64,000 bases of DNA from Kordiimonas laminariae (GTDB taxonomy: Bacteria; Pseudomonadota; Alphaproteobacteria; Sphingomonadales; Kordiimonadaceae). Below, piece by piece: positions 23,577 through 33,003 of this stretch. The DNA lies in assembly GCF_023008165.1 (NCBI RefSeq), contig NZ_JAKQZA010000002.1, positions 248,001 through 312,000 of the forward strand. The letters are read 5' to 3'. The position numbers were made by a program, and so were the translations under genes. Position 1 is the stretch's first letter, and the number at the start of each line of letters is the position of its first letter. A model generated the notes under the pieces. That model ran no database searches. It saw only the letters and a program-made list of their open reading frames with translations, and was not told the DNA's origin.

Positions 23577-24419
23577 CTAACCCAATCCCATCAGCTGTTC
23601 TGCTGTACCATCTGACGGAACATACATTCCTCGCTGGCCTTTAACAGGTTTGAAAGAGTCTGTAATACCCAGAACGGTTTCTGCAGCACCAAGGAACAAG
23701 GTTCCATCGCTCGCCAAAACTTTACGCATACGGTCAAGCACTTGGCCTTTGGTTTTCTGATCAAAGTAAATCAATACGTTACGACAATAAATCACATCAA
23801 ACGTACCCAGTGCTGCAAAGTTATCAAGCAAGTTAAATGGGCGGAATTTCACCATATTGCGAATATCATCGCTCAGTTGCCAAACATCGCCTTCCTGCGT
23901 GAAATATTTGATAAGCAGCTGAATTGGTAAACCACGCTGAACTTCAAATTGGCTATATTTGCCGGCCTTAGCCTTTTCAAGAACCTGCGTACAAATATCT
24001 GTACCAACAATTTCGATATTCCAATTGCTATACTTAATACCTGCCTCTTTTAACAAGATCGCAAGCGAATACGGCTCCTGCCCTGTTGAAGCAGCAGCAC
24101 ACCAAATGCGTAAACGTTTCTGTGTACCACGTGCCTTTTCCATTGCTGGCAACACATGGTTTTTGAAAAGATCAAACGGTGTGTTGTCACGGAAGAAGAA
24201 CGATTCATTTGTGGTCATCGCTTCCGTCACATCTTTCAACAGCGTCTGATCTGTCTTCATCCGTAATTTCTGCACCAGTGCATCAAGTGTATCTAGGCCT
24301 CGTTTCCGCGCAAGCGGTGTAAGCCTACTTTCAAGGAGATACACCTTATCCGGTGTCAGCATCAGGCCTGACCGCTCTTTCAGAGTCCCTGCGAGAAAGT
24401 CAAAATCAGCTGTATTCAC
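23577..24419 (-). CDS. cheR: Chemotaxis protein methyltransferase CheR
   Basis: A 280-residue SAM-dependent methyltransferase. The N-terminal helical domain ends in TTNESFFFRD (about 69-78). The SAM-binding domain has AASTGQEPYSLA (109-120) and IYCRNVLIYFD near 210. CheR methylates glutamates of chemoreceptors. It starts at a GTG that shares its G with the cheB TAG stop (TAGTG), so the two are translationally coupled. Last gene of the cheAWYBR run. Confidence 0.96.
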   Translation of the reverse strand: MNTADFDFLAGTLKERSGLMLTPDKVYLLESRLTPLARKRGLDTLDALVQKLRMKTDQTLLKDVTEAMTTNESFFFRDNTPFDLFKNHVLPAMEKARGTQKRLRIWCAAASTGQEPYSLAILLKEAGIKYSNWNIEIVGTDICTQVLEKAKAGKYSQFEVQRGLPIQLLIKYFTQEGDVWQLSDDIRNMVKFRPFNLLDNFAALGTFDVIYCRNVLIYFDQKTKGQVLDRMRKVLASDGTLFLGAAETVLGITDSFKPVKGQRGMYVPSDGTAEQLMGLG

Positions 24420-25693
24420 TAGTGTCCTCCTTGCAACCGCTTCACAGTCGCGTCGCCCAAATCATCAATAGACAGCACCTCAGTACAAAGCCCTGCTGTC
24501 GCTACGGCGCCTGGCATACCCCACACCACGCTGGACGCTTCATCTTGTGCCAAGAGCGTACCCCCCGCTCTCACCAAATCTCTGGCCCCTTTTAGACCAT
24601 CGTGCCCCATGCCGGTTAAAATAACGGCAAGTGTAGCACCACCATATAGTTTACTCGCACTTCTAAAGAGCGGATCAACCGCTGGCTTGCAGAAATTTTC
24701 TGGTGGATCATCCGTTAACCGAACAATTTTTTTACCATTTTCTTCTGCCACTTCCATGTGCTTACCGCCGGGAGCGACATAAATATTACCGCCTATCAAC
24801 TCTAAACCATCAACTGCTTCCTGCGAAGGCCATCCAGTTGTCTGCCCGAGGTGATCTGCAAGAATAGCCGTAAAAGTTGCCGGCATATGCTGGGTAATCA
24901 GGATAGGTACATTTGGTTGCTTATCCTTAAATTGCCCAAAAAACTTCATCAGCGCCTGTGGTCCACCCGTTGAAGATCCAACAAGAAGAGCTTGTGGTTT
25001 CTTCGGAATACCCATCTGCTTACGCAGTGTAAACGCTGTGCCACCAGTTTGCGGCGCAGCGGCTGCTTCAGGCTTTACAGCGCGTGTCACCACAGGAGTA
25101 GGCTTTGGTCTAGTTGGCGCTGCTACAAAGCCTGTAGGTTTTGCTTTTACTTCAGGTTTCGCGAAAGCTACGTTTTCACGAGCTGTTGCAGGCCCTGTCG
25201 CTGCTTTTGCAGATACAGGCAATGCCTCACCACGCTTGGAACGTCTACGCCCCGCCCATGCTTTAACTTTATCCACTAACTCACGGCGGAAATCGATATT
25301 AGCATTCACTGAACGTGCTGTTTCCGGCTTCGGAACATAATCCACCGCGCCCATCTGTAGAGCACGCAAACTAATCTCGGCATTCTTACGCGTAAGCGTA
25401 GATGCCATAACAACTTTAATATCCGGCACCTTCTCAATTAATTTTGGAAGCGCCGTCATCCCATCCATCTCAGGCATTTCAATATCAAGCACAACCGCTT
25501 CGAGATCGTGCTTTTCAATCTGCCGTAGTGCAACAGCGCCATTATTAGCTGTTGTTACCACTTCGATATCTGGGTCTTCTGATAAATACCTACAAAGAAA
25601 TCCACGAATAATGGCACTATCGTCCACCACCATAACACGGTATGGACCCGGCTCTTTTAAGCTTTCAGATGCCTTGCTCACAATAGAGTGCAC
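24419..25693 (-). CDS. cheB: Chemotaxis methylesterase/deamidase CheB
   Basis: A 424-residue protein: receiver (about 17-130, Asp70 in VVLDIEMPEMDG), an Ala/Pro/Lys-rich linker (about 150-235) and the esterase domain. The catalytic residues are visible as Ser243 in GSSTGGPQAL, His271 in ITQHMPATFT and an Asp in LTGMGHDGLKG. CheB removes methyl groups from receptors for adaptation. The linker is longer than in E. coli (family about 350). A GTG at 25693 is used, 13 bases after cheY. Confidence 0.96.
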   Translation of the reverse strand: MHSIVSKASESLKEPGPYRVMVVDDSAIIRGFLCRYLSEDPDIEVVTTANNGAVALRQIEKHDLEAVVLDIEMPEMDGMTALPKLIEKVPDIKVVMASTLTRKNAEISLRALQMGAVDYVPKPETARSVNANIDFRRELVDKVKAWAGRRRSKRGEALPVSAKAATGPATARENVAFAKPEVKAKPTGFVAAPTRPKPTPVVTRAVKPEAAAAPQTGGTAFTLRKQMGIPKKPQALLVGSSTGGPQALMKFFGQFKDKQPNVPILITQHMPATFTAILADHLGQTTGWPSQEAVDGLELIGGNIYVAPGGKHMEVAEENGKKIVRLTDDPPENFCKPAVDPLFRSASKLYGGATLAVILTGMGHDGLKGARDLVRAGGTLLAQDEASSVVWGMPGAVATAGLCTEVLSIDDLGDATVKRLQGGH

Positions 25694-25706: not shown

Positions 25707-26072
25707 TTAAATCAAACCAACTTGCGAGAATTTAGCCTCGATGATTTCACGATCAAACGGCTTCATAATATACTCGTTGGCACCCGCCTCAATTGCTGTG
25801 CGAATGTGTGACATATCGTTCTCTGTTGTACAGAAAACAACAACTGGCTGTTCAATACCATCTTTGGCACGCAGCGTTTTTAAAAACTGCAAACCGTCCA
25901 TAACCGGCATATTCCAATCAAGAAGAACCACATCAGGCAGGTTACGATCACACGCATCAAGCGCGTCCTGTCCATCAACAGCTTCTTCAATCTCGAAGTT
26001 CAGTTCTTCCAGAATGCGCCTTGCGACTTTTCTAATCACTCTGGAATCATCGACAACAAGACAGAGTTTCAT
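25707..26072 (-). CDS. cheY: Chemotaxis response regulator CheY
   Basis: A 121-residue single receiver domain. The acidic pocket is VVDDSR (7-11), phospho-acceptor Asp52 in LLDWNMPVMDG, and the conserved Lys lies in IMKPFDREII near 107. It is phosphorylated by CheA and binds the flagellar switch. It resembles the alphaproteobacterial CheY that sits between cheW and cheB. Spacing to cheB and cheW is short, so it belongs to the operon. Confidence 0.95.
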   Translation of the reverse strand: MKLCLVVDDSRVIRKVARRILEELNFEIEEAVDGQDALDACDRNLPDVVLLDWNMPVMDGLQFLKTLRAKDGIEQPVVVFCTTENDMSHIRTAIEAGANEYIMKPFDREIIEAKFSQVGLI

Positions 26073-26125: not shown

Positions 26126-26617
26126 TTAAGCAGCTTTTCCTTGAGTTTCAAAGGCAAGAAGTTTGTCTACATCCAGAATCGGCAACAATTCCCCCTCCAA
26201 ACGGTAAATACCGCGGCTCACTTCTCTCCAACGAGGGTCAAGCGTCACCGGATTACGTTCGAAAAGTTGATCATCGAGAGATAATACTTCTCCCACAGAA
26301 TCAATCTGCAAACTATATGGTTCTTCGTTATGCTCTACCACAACTGACATGCTTTGCTTATCGCCTTCAAGCGGATCAAGCCCCAAGCGGTTACGCAAGT
26401 CAATGGCGGTTACAATTCTACCACGCAGGTTCAACACACCAGAAACCCATTTAGGGGCCAGTGGGATCTTGGTAATTTTCTGGGCATTTAGCACATCATG
26501 CACAGCAAGAACCGGGATACCCAATGTCTGGCCAGCAAGTTTGATAGTTACAAAATCCTGACTACCAGTGCCAACAGCTACAACACTTAAATCATCACGC
26601 ACTACGAGATCATTCAT
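26126..26617 (-). CDS. cheW: Chemotaxis coupling protein CheW
   Basis: A 163-residue single CheW domain. Family blocks include FVTIKLAGQTLGIPVLAVHDVL (about 22-43), GVLNLRGRIVTAIDLRNRLGL (about 61-81) and SRGIYRLEGELLPILDVDKLL near the end. It links chemoreceptors to CheA. The ATG overlaps the cheA stop by four bases (ATGA), so it is translationally coupled to CheA. No chemoreceptor gene is in the window. Confidence 0.96.
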   Translation of the reverse strand: MNDLVVRDDLSVVAVGTGSQDFVTIKLAGQTLGIPVLAVHDVLNAQKITKIPLAPKWVSGVLNLRGRIVTAIDLRNRLGLDPLEGDKQSMSVVVEHNEEPYSLQIDSVGEVLSLDDQLFERNPVTLDPRWREVSRGIYRLEGELLPILDVDKLLAFETQGKAA

Positions 26618-29600
26618 GCTGCATCTCCTTTGATTTTAAGTTGCTGTGCTAAACTTCTCAGCAGCGTATCCTTGTCGAATTTCGCTACATAATCATCAAA
26701 ACCGGCTTCATAGCCCCTGTTGATATCTTTCTCTTTCGCAAGAGACGACAAAGCAACGATTGGAGTATTCGCCCAGCGATCATCAGCCTTAGCTGCCGCA
26801 ACGAATTCATATCCATTCATATCCGGCATTTCGATATCAGAGATAATCAAATCAAACATCTGACCATCTTCCATCATTTGAAGTGCACCAGCAGCGCTCG
26901 AAACAGTAGCAACACTATAACCCGCTACTGTAAGAACAGGTTTCACCATATTACGGAAGAAATCACTATCATCGACAAGAAGCAGTTGCAGGCCACGATT
27001 ATCCAAACCTTCTTCAACCATCTCGCCAGAACGCATCCAGTCCGAGAATGCTAAGTTCAAATAATAAGATACATCAATAACTTCAGAAGCTTTTCCTGCA
27101 ATTACTGCAGAACCAACAACACCAGCCTGATTAGAAGCCAGTTTTACATCAAGCTTCTCTTCTACAATATCTTTAATCTCATCAACCGCGAGGCCCATTG
27201 TGTATTCACGGTCAGTGAACACAAGAACTGGCTGTCTGCCTTCTTCAAGCAACTCCATATCTGGATTTGCTTTAATAAGAGGCATAAGGTTGCCGCGATA
27301 CTGAACCATATGGCGACCGTCTGAAATCTCAACATCAGCAGTATCGATTTCCTCTAGTCGAGCAATAAGAGCTAACGGCACAGCTTTAGGGTTACCGCCA
27401 CCAGCAGTGAACACAAGCATGCTCTCTGTTTCGTCGTATTTAGCTCGTTGTACGGCTTCTTGCTCACCATCAGCATCTTGCTGCTGATCTTGAACACCAT
27501 TATTCGCAAGAGATGCAACACCGTTCGGATCAAGGATCATAATCACACTACCATCACCGAGAATGGTATTTCCTGAGTAAATATCCAAATCCTTCAGGAT
27601 AGGCGCAACAGGTTTCACAACAATCTCTTCGGTATCAAACACCTGATCCACAACGATACCAAAAGTGAATGGGCCCACCTGTGTTACAACAATGAAATCA
27701 TCAGCTTCTTCACGTGCATCAATTTCTTCCCGTGTCATAAAGCCAAGAACTTCATTCAGATACACAAGCGGCAACAAACGGTTTCTCAAACGAAGAACAG
27801 GTGCGTTGTTAATGGTCTCGATCTTATGTTCTGAATTATTGCTTGAATTCGCCGAAGCACGCACAAGCTCAAGTACACTGATTTGAGGAATTGCATAACG
27901 CTCTTCCTGCGCCTTAACGATAAGGCCAGCAACAATTGCTAGGGTCAGTGGGATTTTGATATCAAACGTTGTACCTTTACCCTCAACCGAGGTCATATCG
28001 ATGGTACCACCGATTTTCTCAATATTAGAGCGTACCACATCCATCCCTACACCACGGCCGGAAACACTTGTTACCTGCTCCGCTGTAGAGAAACCTGGGT
28101 GGAAAATGAATTTCTGGATCTGATTATCTGACATTTCAGCAAGTTCTGCTTCCGTCGCCAGACCTTTTTCCAGAATTTTCTTCGCAAGCTTAGCAACCGG
28201 AATACCTGCACCATCATCTTTAATTTCAATGATGATGTGACCGCCTTCATGGAACGCGTTCAAGGTAATCGTACCTTGCTCAGGCTTACCATTTGCCATC
28301 CGTACTGCAGGTGTCTCAATACCGTGATCGGCAGAGTTACGAACCATGTGAGTAAGCGGGTCTTTGATAAGTTCTAGAACCTGACGATCCAGTTCTGTAT
28401 CAGCACCGATCATCTCAAGTTCAATTTTCTTATCAAGTTCAACTGTCAGGTCACGTACAATACGCGGCAATTTTGCCCAAGCGTTACCGATTGGCTGCAT
28501 ACGCGTTTTCATCACGTTTTCCTGCAGCTCAGTCGTACACTGGCTGAGGCGCTGAAGCGGTACTGCAAGCTCTGTATTATCCAAATTACGTGTAATCTGC
28601 AGAAGCTGGTTACGGGTCAGAACAAGTTCTGAAACCATATTCATCAAATCTTCAAGCAGTTCCACATTCACACGAATAGACTGCGATACCTTCTTCGTCT
28701 CTTTTGCAGGGCCTGCAGCACCAGCGGCCGGGCCTGTTTTCTGCTCGGTACCTGCTTTATTTGGGGTGGATTTTGCAACTTCCTTCGAAGCATTCACAAC
28801 AGCTTCACGAATAAGCTCAAACGTCATCACCGCTTCATCGGCATCATCACTTGATACCTGACATTCAACGAGAGCTTCTTTGACAAGTTTAAGCATCTTA
28901 TCAAAGTGACCATCACCAAAGCCTGTAACCGTTACCAGTTGACGCCCAATGGTGTCCGCCGCATCAATATCATCCTTAAAGAGAGCCATCATCAGGCCAA
29001 GGAACTTCGATTTACGAAGATCAATCGCGACAGCTTCAAAAAACTTCTTAAGCTGATCATCATTTGCGATACGTGTCGCAACCAAATGCGCGGCCACCGC
29101 CACACTATCTTCACCACCAACACGATCGTAAAGAGAACCACCAGATGAAGCCGGGGCTGCTGCTTCAGGTTCTGGCGCCGTGTCATCCGCCGTATCTTCA
29201 GGGCCCGGTGCATTTGCAAATGCAGCTTCAAGCTCTTCTAGAGATACTTCACCAGGCTTCAGTGCACGCCCAAGTGTTGTATCAACAATCTCGCCATCAA
29301 CGGTGTCCGGTTCATCTTCTACAGGCTCTGCATCTGCACCTTCAGCAATTGCGTCCAGACGGTTGATCAGATCACTATCATCACCATCAGGCTCTTCTTC
29401 CGTTGCCTCAAGGCCAGCTAGAATTTCTTTAATACGGTCCAAACTCTCGAGAATCACCGTTACCGAATGCTCGGAAACTTCAAGTTCACCATCTCGGAAT
29501 TTGCCTAGTACGTTTTCAGATGCATGCGCCACTGATTCAAGCCTTGGTAGCCCAAGGAAGCCACATGTACCTTTAATTGTGTGCACTAGGCGGAAGATAT

Positions 29601-29712
29601 TATCCAATACTTCCTTGTTGTTAGGATCTTGTTCGAGCTTCACGAGCTCAATATCAACAACATCAATGCTTTCCGCTGTTTCGGTTAGGAATTCATTTAA
29701 CAGATCATCCAT
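26614..29712 (-). CDS. cheA: Hybrid chemotaxis kinase CheA with an internal globin-like domain and a C-terminal receiver
   Basis: A 1032-residue kinase. Domains in order: HPt with His44 in RLVHTIKGTCGFLGL; an acidic linker; a segment at about 193-306 that resembles truncated haemoglobins (SLYDRVGGED, DDQLKKFFEAV, GFGDGHFDKML); dimerisation about 340-400; ATPase about 440-590 (HMVRNSADHGIE, DDGAGIP, SGRGVGMDVV); two CheW-like domains, about 590-730 and 760-890; and a receiver about 907-1025 with Asp959. The receiver and second CheW-like domain resemble the CheA-CheY fusions of other alphaproteobacteria. In the globin-like segment the expected proximal His aligns with Gly256 and the distal B10 Tyr with Val211, so haem binding is doubtful. 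The gene heads cheAWYBR behind a CtrA-like box. Confidence 0.95.
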   Translation of the reverse strand: MDDLLNEFLTETAESIDVVDIELVKLEQDPNNKEVLDNIFRLVHTIKGTCGFLGLPRLESVAHASENVLGKFRDGELEVSEHSVTVILESLDRIKEILAGLEATEEEPDGDDSDLINRLDAIAEGADAEPVEDEPDTVDGEIVDTTLGRALKPGEVSLEELEAAFANAPGPEDTADDTAPEPEAAAPASSGGSLYDRVGGEDSVAVAAHLVATRIANDDQLKKFFEAVAIDLRKSKFLGLMMALFKDDIDAADTIGRQLVTVTGFGDGHFDKMLKLVKEALVECQVSSDDADEAVMTFELIREAVVNASKEVAKSTPNKAGTEQKTGPAAGAAGPAKETKKVSQSIRVNVELLEDLMNMVSELVLTRNQLLQITRNLDNTELAVPLQRLSQCTTELQENVMKTRMQPIGNAWAKLPRIVRDLTVELDKKIELEMIGADTELDRQVLELIKDPLTHMVRNSADHGIETPAVRMANGKPEQGTITLNAFHEGGHIIIEIKDDGAGIPVAKLAKKILEKGLATEAELAEMSDNQIQKFIFHPGFSTAEQVTSVSGRGVGMDVVRSNIEKIGGTIDMTSVEGKGTTFDIKIPLTLAIVAGLIVKAQEERYAIPQISVLELVRASANSSNNSEHKIETINNAPVLRLRNRLLPLVYLNEVLGFMTREEIDAREEADDFIVVTQVGPFTFGIVVDQVFDTEEIVVKPVAPILKDLDIYSGNTILGDGSVIMILDPNGVASLANNGVQDQQQDADGEQEAVQRAKYDETESMLVFTAGGGNPKAVPLALIARLEEIDTADVEISDGRHMVQYRGNLMPLIKANPDMELLEEGRQPVLVFTDREYTMGLAVDEIKDIVEEKLDVKLASNQAGVVGSAVIAGKASEVIDVSYYLNLAFSDWMRSGEMVEEGLDNRGLQLLLVDDSDFFRNMVKPVLTVAGYSVATVSSAAGALQMMEDGQMFDLIISDIEMPDMNGYEFVAAAKADDRWANTPIVALSSLAKEKDINRGYEAGFDDYVAKFDKDTLLRSLAQQLKIKGDAA

Positions 29713-29841: not shown

Positions 29842-30480
29842 TTAATTATCTGAAATTATTACGGCTTTCACTTCTAACGTCTCACCATCAATATCATTGA
29901 TTGTAATTTGCCCATCACATTCCCCTATTATTGTTGCCGCCAGAAAAGCCGGAGCTGTTCTAGGTTCTACTTCTTCTTCAGAAACTTCCCCTAATAAAGC
30001 TGCCTTAACACCTTCCTGTAGAATGATCCGGTTCCCCACCCCCGTCATCTTCAGCGTGTATTGATTACTATCCTCGGACACTTCAACACGCAAGCTTCCG
30101 CCGCGGATTAATGTTTCAAACGTAGTAAGGCCTAAATTTAACAGCAACTTTACGACGTTTTTCGACAAGCTACGCACAGAAGAATGCCATTCCAATTCGA
30201 CACGGCTACCGCTGAGCAATGCACGCATAGCTTTTTCAGCCTCAGATACATCCAAGTGCTCAGAAAAACCGCCCGCGGCCCCAAAAGCGAGCCTAAAAAA
30301 CTGCAGCTTATTTGCTGTTTGTTGAGTGGATTTGGAAATCAAATCAAGAACAGCATCCCGCATACTTGCATCCTGCTCTTCCTCAAGAATTTCAAGCCCA
30401 TTATTAATTGCCCCCACTGGACTTACCAGATCATGGCAAAGCCGCGAGCATAACAAGGCTGCGAAATCCATTTTAGGCAT
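29842..30480 (-). CDS. chpT: Histidine phosphotransferase ChpT
   Basis: A 212-residue protein with a DHp-like N-terminus carrying the phospho-accepting His16 in LCSRLCHDLVSPVGAINNGLE. A degenerate GHKL-type C-terminal domain follows that lacks ATP-binding G-boxes, as expected for ChpT. It shuttles phosphate from CckA to CtrA and CpdR. A good ribosome site (aggag) precedes the ATG at 30480. Lying just upstream of cheA on the same strand, 129 bases apart, it is the relay partner of ctrA encoded 7 kb away. CckA is not in the window. Confidence 0.94.
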   Translation of the reverse strand: MPKMDFAALLCSRLCHDLVSPVGAINNGLEILEEEQDASMRDAVLDLISKSTQQTANKLQFFRLAFGAAGGFSEHLDVSEAEKAMRALLSGSRVELEWHSSVRSLSKNVVKLLLNLGLTTFETLIRGGSLRVEVSEDSNQYTLKMTGVGNRIILQEGVKAALLGEVSEEEVEPRTAPAFLAATIIGECDGQITINDIDGETLEVKAVIISDN

Positions 30481-31479: not shown

Positions 31480-31524
31480 TCTGTAGAATAATATTTATGA
31501 ATATTTTCACGTTTGGGTTCGAAG

Positions 31525-32223
31525 ATGAGTTTCCTGTTATCATTCGCCGGTGCTGCTCTTTTGCAGGCAACACCTATATCGATGGATGAGCAACTTCATT
31601 TAATTACTGAAGAAAATTATCCCTTCACATATACGGATCAAACAACAGGCAAAGTAACCGGTACTGTGTCTGAAATCATTTTCTCTCTTATGAAGAAGGC
31701 TGATATCCAATACACCCTCGCGGTGATGCCTCATAAACGAGGTAAAAGAGAGGCCTTAAAGAAAAACCACTGCATCTTTGCTTTTAACGAAACCTCAGAA
31801 CGGTTACCGCATTACACTTGGGTTGGCCCAATTCTTATTGGCGGCTGGGCTTTTTACACCAGATCAGAAAATTTGATCACGGCAAAGTCTCTTGACGACC
31901 TTCGACAATATAAAATCGCTGCTACAGATGGTACCGCCAACACATCTACACTAAAGAAGTTAGGCGGTTTCGATATGGTACTTACACCTACAGACGATGT
32001 AGCGCTGAACATGCTTGTTAAGGGACGCGTTGATATTATGTCTGGCGGTGTGATTGATGTAACCAGTACAGTGAGAAAACAGGAACTCCCTGAGCCGAAA
32101 ATGATCTACTACTGGCGTAAAGCTATATTGAGCATGGGCTGCGGAAGAGAAACTGATCCCACAACCATTGAACGGCTGAATACACTCAACTCTCAAAGAA
32201 TAGATTATCAGCCTAGAGACTAG
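31525..32223 (+). CDS. Periplasmic solute-binding protein-like protein, family 3 (copy 1)
   Basis: A 232-residue protein with a short hydrophobic signal segment, then a family 3 solute-binding fold: LHLITEENYPFTYTDQTTGKVTG near the start, LVKGRVDIMSGGVIDV near 170-185 and YYWRKAILSMGCG at about 199-211. Such proteins bind small polar solutes or act as sensor domains. The ATG at 31525 is preferred over a TTG four codons upstream. No ABC permease or ATPase is nearby. It is a tandem paralogue of the next gene (shared TEENxPxxYTD, TDGTA, YxWRK and ACxxGTD-like blocks). Confidence 0.75.
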   Translation: MSFLLSFAGAALLQATPISMDEQLHLITEENYPFTYTDQTTGKVTGTVSEIIFSLMKKADIQYTLAVMPHKRGKREALKKNHCIFAFNETSERLPHYTWVGPILIGGWAFYTRSENLITAKSLDDLRQYKIAATDGTANTSTLKKLGGFDMVLTPTDDVALNMLVKGRVDIMSGGVIDVTSTVRKQELPEPKMIYYWRKAILSMGCGRETDPTTIERLNTLNSQRIDYQPRD

Positions 32224-32289
32224 TTTCCTGTTGACCAAGTACACATCTAACGTCACTCTTTACCAAAGGCTTATTATATAGGGGTGAGT

Positions 32290-33003
32290 ATGTCTTTTGT
32301 TTCCTTAATCTCAGCTGGACTGATGTTATTAACCGACAACACTCATCCTACTCTTCAGTTAGTAACAGAAGAAAATCATCCATATAGTTATACAGATAAA
32401 GAAACCGGCGAGTTAATTGGCGCATCTGTCGAAATGATTCAGCTTCTCATGAAAAATGCAGATGTTAGTTACAGCCTTATGGTTCTTCCAAGAAAACGCG
32501 CCTTAAGACTTGCGGAAGAAAACCCGAATGTTTGCATGTTTTCGGTAAATAAAACACCAGCCCGATTAAACCGCTTTGAATGGGTAGGCCCGCTCGTTGA
32601 AGGTGGCTGGGGGTTCTTTTCAAAACCCGGAAGCACATACAACATTAAGTCGCTTCAAGATTTAAAGAATTATACAGTAACAGGGACAGACGGCACAGCC
32701 AGTATAGAAATGCTCCGTAACAATAGTGATGCTAAGATCATCACCTCAAATTCAGATGAAGGCGCTATTGCCATGCTTTACCACGGCAGAGCCGATTTCC
32801 TATTAACGGGTGTTATCGAAATCAAACCCACCACTAAGTCTCTGGGCTATGAAGAGCCTCAATTAAGCTACCTTTGGCGTAAATCACATCTGGCTCTTGC
32901 GTGTGCCAAAGGAACAGATAAAACAATCATCAAACGGTTAAATGATGAAAACACCAAGATAGCAACAGAGCGCTTCAATATTCTTCAAAAACATCTGCAA
33001 TAA
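32290..33003 (+). CDS. Periplasmic solute-binding protein-like protein, family 3 (copy 2)
   Basis: A 237-residue paralogue of the upstream gene, with the same layout: hydrophobic N-terminus, LQLVTEENHPYSYTDKETGELIG, VGPLVEGGWGFF, TGTDGTASIEMLRN and LSYLWRKSHLALACAKGTD. The two differ enough to suggest separate ligands. The ATG at 32290 is used (agggg ribosome site); a GTG two codons upstream is also possible. Followed by a strong terminator. No transporter partner is present, so a sensory or scavenging role cannot be excluded. Confidence 0.75.
   Translation: MSFVSLISAGLMLLTDNTHPTLQLVTEENHPYSYTDKETGELIGASVEMIQLLMKNADVSYSLMVLPRKRALRLAEENPNVCMFSVNKTPARLNRFEWVGPLVEGGWGFFSKPGSTYNIKSLQDLKNYTVTGTDGTASIEMLRNNSDAKIITSNSDEGAIAMLYHGRADFLLTGVIEIKPTTKSLGYEEPQLSYLWRKSHLALACAKGTDKTIIKRLNDENTKIATERFNILQKHLQ

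Follow-up and report, generated by a model that had tools for sequence, protein, structure and literature searches.

What does a globin-like stretch do inside a chemotaxis kinase, and can it still hold haem? The question is raised by the cheA gene of Kordiimonas laminariae, which lies in the stretch of 64,000 nucleotides analysed here as a whole (the window; contig NZ_JAKQZA010000002.1, positions 248,001 to 312,000). The first-pass annotation, made from the letters of the window, had read a group I truncated globin between the HPt and dimerisation domains of this CheA. The features of the locus, in window positions, are as follows.

23577-24419, minus strand: cheR
24419-25693, minus strand: cheB
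25707-26072, minus strand: cheY, encoding a single receiver domain
26126-26617, minus strand: cheW, the next gene downstream in the row of cheA, which it overlaps by 4 bases
26614-29712, minus strand: cheA, 1032 amino acids (open reading frame and Pfam)
28693-28779, minus strand: variable globin-P3 linker, CheA residues 312-340
28795-29136, minus strand: degenerate group I truncated-globin domain, CheA residues 193-306
29140-29382, minus strand: P1-globin linker with the motif LGRALKPGEVSLEELEAAFANAPGPED, CheA residues 111-191
29842-30480, minus strand: gene of a ChpT-like histidine phosphotransferase, upstream of cheA

In the window, the genes for the ChpT-like phosphotransferase, CheA, CheW, CheY, CheB and CheR form one row on a single strand. 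A ChpT-like gene beside cheA was common to many related loci, including those of several other globin CheAs, and such a neighbour may tie chemotaxis to CtrA-type phosphorelays. As a separate observation, two adjoining related genes at positions 31513-33003 of the window resemble, by eye, small periplasmic solute-binding proteins.

The domains of CheA were assigned with Pfam: Hpt (P1, residues 3-96), globin (193-306), H-kinase_dim (P3, 343-403), HATPase_c (451-590), two CheW domains (best match 596-734) and a receiver (911-1019). This order bore out the placement of the globin between P1 and the dimerisation domain, within a P1-P3 linker of 231 residues. The protein also contains VHTIKG (residues 43-48), HMVRNSADHG (455-464) and LIISDIEMP (955-963), which we take to be the histidine motif of P1, the N-box of the kinase and the Asp motif of the receiver, respectively. 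In the available part of a published survey, two CheW domains are given as the mark of CheA class F5 (Berry et al., PMC10782961). By Pfam, the window CheA has two CheW domains and a C-terminal receiver, and its F5 label was taken from this domain set, not from the published class models.

The homology of residues 193-306 to group I truncated globins was confirmed by Pfam, by phmmer and by a profile of relatives. The search with PF01152 (Bac_globin) that had been proposed as a check scored the domain alone at 22.4 bits against a cut-off of 21 bits (E 1.5e-4), and the whole CheA at 15.3 bits (E 0.024), which is under the cut-off. The match covered exactly residues 193-306, corresponding to profile positions 1-118 of 121. 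When the PDB was searched by phmmer with the window domain, truncated globins filled the top 18 of the 21 rows, Chlamydomonas THB1 having E 8.8e-6. A profile built from 39 CheA relatives matched 21 PDB sequences at E <= 0.01, all of them truncated globins (best E 1.2e-15), and a profile of haem-type truncated globins matched the linker of the window CheA at E 3.6e-16 (Z set to 1000). The single domains of ten relatives were also submitted to Pfam. Those of L046, L049, L101, L102, L105 and L109 were above the cut-off and those of L018, L029, L038 and L041 below it, all four of the latter belonging to the window's order, which contributed six of the relatives; L018 and L041 scored 13.9 and 12.8 bits, and L029 and L038 gave no globin match.

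The structure of the domain was predicted in two AlphaFold2 runs from an input of three sequences, which gave models of moderate confidence. The best models had mean pLDDT values of 72.6 and 75.1 and seven helices, and the other four models reached 47.6-59.1 in the first run (poor) and 62.7-69.5 in the second. Alignments A2 and A4, in which the added CheW-globin of L033 was misaligned, were kept out of the folding input. The suggested fold search agreed with the sequence searches, with truncated globins ranked at the top by Foldseek for both models. VIA-align against THB11 gave Z 13.3 (rmsd 2.5, 119 residues) and Z 12.8 (rmsd 2.5, 118 residues), values that taken alone are borderline for mostly helical models by VIA-align's own guidance; sequence and structure agree. 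As judged from the predicted models alone, the domain has the 2-on-2 fold of truncated globins.

Neither a plain Hpt-like bundle nor profile scores at background level were seen, so the globin reading stands, and we regard the globin fold and homology of the domain as strongly supported. A helical bundle of the Hpt or P2 type was ruled out by the profile matches and the fold matches. That the region is no globin, and that an Hpt-like or P2-like helical stretch resembles one by chance, is hardly credible: although the Pfam score of the whole protein lies below the cut-off, the matches of the relatives' profile to truncated globins only, the match with the haem-globin profile, the fold matches and a graded series of relatives leading up to unmistakable globins in the same slot all speak against it.

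When the domain is aligned with single-domain globins and globins of solved structure, F8 (the proximal His) falls on Gly256 of CheA, as the first-pass annotation had it, and B10 (the distal Tyr) falls on Ala212, one residue beyond the Val211 that had been named; the claim that the usual haem ligands are missing holds at both positions. The ligand table covers 73 distinct globin domains of CheAs, of which the window's order supplied 50 and other lineages 23, and four single-domain globins (L064, L121 and two in L122) stand outside this table. His F8 is missing in 62 of the 73 CheA domains and is kept, in the same alignment, in all 30 single-domain and reference globins. All 50 order domains lack it: the F8 region is a few residues shorter than in haem globins in 38 of them, and F8 is Phe in 12, all of family f8. 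In this protein family, ordinary haem binding is unlikely without His F8. With Gly256 at F8 and Ala212 at B10, ordinary haem binding of the window domain is therefore unlikely, and we infer from its sequence that this CheA globin is haem-free. Haem might still be bound through a substitute ligand such as His209, with gas sensed as the relatives probably do, but this seems quite improbable. His209 is present in 97% of 38 and in 100% of 9 order domains (two sub-sets), yet it precedes B10 by three residues, at a site that is often Asp in haem-type copies, and the F-helix region is shortened in the 38 order domains and carries Phe at F8 in the 12 domains of f8.

Some positions, among them His209, Lys234, Gly239, Met296 and Glu299, are almost invariant among the order domains without being so in haem globins. 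Such newly fixed positions point to a changed role more than to simple decay. These residues, His209 among them, and the persistence of the fold without its ligands would also suit a haem-free sensor, in which some other ligand occupies the former haem pocket or a physical state is sensed by the fold, a role that we consider rather unlikely. The models resemble 3zta, a globin of the stressosome (Z 10.2 and 9.4), and RsbR-type non-haem globins have been proposed to act likewise; these Z values are lower than those for truncated globins, and the likeness may reflect the shared fold alone. In the accessible part of one report, binding of ethanol by the HemAT globin is described as independent of haem (PMC7542364).

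A query made of the window domain matched 65 of the 196 genomes sampled from the window's order, single-domain globins included, and P1, globin and P3 were verified in one frame in 50 of the 196, the window's own genome included. The 50 CheA globins come from families f1, f2, f6, f7 and f8. With the same query in the order sample, no CheA-length frame of family f5 was matched, nor was every genome of the five families (exceptions include G020 of f6, four genomes of f2 and G048 of f8). A genome-wide search of Kordiimonas laminariae with Bac_globin found no match at E <= 1e-3, the CheA domain also being missed there. The possibility that the domain is a private oddity of the window's genome was ruled out by the matches across the order and class samples. 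On the core tree, 25 rows of the window lineage, L031 included, stand together on one branch (SH-aLRT 96), and all 18 order rows tested lie on one branch of the reduced globin tree (support 99). Since the lineage forms a single branch in both trees, loss of the haem ligands probably came before the divergence of the five families with globin CheAs.

Across the class, the profile of relatives matched 51 of 385 genomes, many of the matches being single-domain globins. In the class sample, 171 genomes have a CheA match at E <= 1e-60; the CheAs of 119 of these were examined, and a globin was located between P1 and P3 in 21 of the 119 (the window's own included; G515 weakly). A hidden globin in every F5-type CheA was ruled out, as 98 of the 119 genomes gave none at E < 1e-3. 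Because the haem-globin profile matches the window's linker and these 98 genomes have no match, the signal is no background effect; the linker profiles were built partly from the same domains, so that the recovery of those members is circular, whereas absence elsewhere is not. P1-P3 linkers without a globin measure 71-284 residues (median 118), against 178-255 residues (median 202) for those with one, some loci being counted twice.

His F8 is kept in 11 of the 73 CheA globins, all outside the window's order (11 of the 23 non-order domains), with Tyr at B10 in ten of the 11 and Phe in one. The whole CheA frames of L094, L095, L096, L098, L099, L100, L112 and L116 scored above the Bac_globin cut-off (38.4-122.7 bits), those of L098 and L116 ending at contig ends; the values for whole ligand-bearing CheAs were 63.2 bits in L094, 68.6 in L096 and 59.8 in L100. 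The globin domain of L094 matched cyanoglobin at E 4.1e-31. The gene row is chpT-cheA-cheW-cheY-cheB at L094 and L095, chpT-cheA-cheW-cheY at L100 and, within the available stretch, chpT-cheA at L098 and L116. At L096, L099, L112 and L114, chpT was not seen near cheA and the surroundings differ. Judging by these sequences, several alphaproteobacterial families carry CheA globins with haem ligands in the same P1-P3 slot, a finding that is new here.

Other arrangements were observed in the same samples. CheAs with two truncated globins are encoded at L095 (1354-4953) and L098 (2-2620), where the second globin splits the first CheW domain and keeps both His F8 and Tyr B10. In three cases a CheW has a C-terminal truncated globin, of which the one in L033 (5272-6423) retains the ligands and those in L117 and L118 have lost them. 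The CheAs inspected from the genomes of the latter two, L176 and L187, have no globin. Receptor-like proteins in which a ligand-bearing truncated globin is followed by PAS-like repeats were found at L097 (2465-5329), which has an MCP signalling domain, and at L115, which runs off its contig. In L102 and L138 (G569), CheA is broken into two frames by an in-frame stop, and two CheA frames are likewise present in the related G492 (L104). The CheA of L139 (G225) has a P1-P3 linker of 213 residues with an approximate internal repeat, seen by eye, and no globin match. A query with MamC, as a test for magnetotaxis, matched none of the nine genomes of family f44 in a run without positive control.

Outside the Alphaproteobacteria, 18 distinct CheA records chosen among the matches listed for a phylum sample, two of them cut before P1, gave no globin-profile match at E <= 0.01. 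Also among the matches listed, five non-class rows align from about residue 1 of a globin-bearing CheA (G613, G578, G854, G868 and G740), and G613, the one of the five that was examined, has no globin. For plasmids, 485 records matched, none of which covers 80% of the globin-including query, and the match begins after the globin in every one of the 30 rows listed. Since no globin was found among the non-class CheAs examined and no plasmid record covers 80% of a query with the fusion, the samples searched show the fusion in Alphaproteobacteria only.

Compared with its counterpart in a close genome, the window's globin domain shows 7 base changes and 1 residue change (dN 0.004, dS 0.081), and the whole cheA shows 118 and 8, respectively; by this comparison, the CheA globin is under purifying selection between the two genomes. 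Over 17 CheAs of the genus, the mean pairwise identity is 0.68 in the globin, 0.96 in P1 and 0.94 in P3, so that the domain is kept but not tightly, and it is 0.63 in the P1-globin linker and 0.33 in the globin-P3 linker. This moderate conservation of the globin, near that of the neighbouring linker (0.68 vs 0.63), would fit an inert spacer, namely a decaying globin retained just to set the distance from P1 to the kinase core, and in many F5-type CheAs a domain-free linker of about 118 residues is enough. We consider such a spacer distinctly unlikely, as the globin is present in the CheAs of 50 order genomes at nearly constant length, dN/dS between the two close genomes is low, some positions are newly conserved, and the globin-less F5-type CheAs themselves show that so large a spacer is unnecessary.

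On the best core tree, 10 changes are required to explain which CheAs have the globin, but only 1 is forced by well-supported branches. The larger globin tree contains 6 changes between CheA and other contexts, with the ligand-bearing CheA domains scattered among single-domain globins. In the reduced tree, from which the longest branches were left out (L230, L110, L109, L112, L118, L113, L065, L066, L042, L043 and the first globin of L098) and in which near relatives were thinned, one clade for 36 CheA globins was not rejected (p-AU 0.49). These trees are compatible both with a single capture followed by many losses and with repeated capture.

We favour, with a probability of about 0.6, the reading that a gas-binding globin was captured by CheA and that the window lineage lost haem and keeps the domain as a haem-free interaction or regulatory module. 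The host is an F5-type CheA with the order P1-globin-P3-P4-CheW-CheW-receiver, in which the globin sits where P2 does in E. coli. The ligand-bearing CheA globins would most likely bind O2, NO or CO, feed the gas signal straight into the kinase and act by changing the access of P1 to P4. In the window lineage, the haem ligands would have been lost and the module kept since then without haem. Its globin would most likely serve now in regulation or docking, as a body between flexible linkers that may hold P1 relative to P4 and offer a binding face to CheY, CheB or another partner, like P2 of E. coli. We infer for the window globin the absence of haem, the loss of gas sensing and a docking or regulatory role; the domain may thus be a new input or scaffold, as the first-pass annotation had proposed. 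After P1, a motif of the approximate form GEVSLEELEAAFxxAPGPED was found by pattern search in 46 of 73 globin CheAs against 19 of 99 globin-less CheAs, and the motif in the P1-globin linker of the window CheA is common in CheAs of its order. This conserved linker motif is possibly a docking motif.

A broader reading, which we hold tentatively and at somewhat less than even odds, is that a branch of alphaproteobacterial CheAs consists of receptor-free gas-sensing kinases and that in the window lineage the sensor became a haem-free regulatory domain. These kinases would carry a captured truncated haemoglobin in the P1-P3 linker, and two of them a further one inside the CheW domain of P5, and O2, NO or CO would set the kinase output. 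If this is true, a CheA globin with haem ligands would be the kinase's own cytoplasmic input and a route to aerotaxis that is independent of receptors, and the ligand-less branch would offer a natural series in which a sensor changes its nature at a single, constant position of one kinase. The ligand-bearing CheA globins in several alphaproteobacterial families are of wider interest than the window copy alone.

In the available part of a survey of 13,673 CheAs, the kinase is said to rely on chemoreceptors and to have no sensor domain, and the word "globin" is absent from its main text, supplements aside (PMC10782961). No description of a globin in CheA or CheW was recognised in the open-access literature, as judged from titles and the starts of abstracts among the matches listed. 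It is possible that an earlier report of a CheA globin exists, for example in subscription papers or in the supplements of the survey.

Several known systems share features with the window CheA. The CheY-binding P2 domain of E. coli CheA has the same position between P1 and P3 as the window globin, but its fold, an alpha/beta sandwich, is unrelated. No Pfam match to a P2 or CheY-binding domain was found in the window CheA at E <= 1, and such models are insensitive according to the part of the survey available (PMC10782961). The group I truncated haemoglobins (HbN, cyanoglobin and Chlamydomonas THB1; PF01152) belong to the same sequence family and share the predicted fold and the length of about 115 residues; the window domain differs from them in having neither His F8 nor Tyr B10 and in being embedded in a kinase. 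The RsbR proteins of the stressosome, whose globin domains are of haem or non-haem type according to the accessible part of one source (PMC9237108), likewise use a haem-free globin fold in signalling, but there it is joined to a STAS domain with no histidine kinase and is structurally farther from the window models than truncated globins are. In Corallococcus, the receptor Cc_4972 has the order Bac_globin-PAS-MCP, as given in the part of the report available (PMC6194562), and it places a Bac_globin in a chemotaxis protein; L097 and L115 are similar fusions. Such receptors have the globin fused to the receptor, unlike the CheA and CheW fusions described here. The globin-coupled sensors, HemAT among others, likewise tie a globin to a chemotaxis or kinase output. 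Their haem globin (of the protoglobin type in HemAT) is N-terminal on receptors or enzymes, an arrangement that the window CheA does not have; its globin is internal and truncated, has no haem ligands and lies downstream of the receptors.
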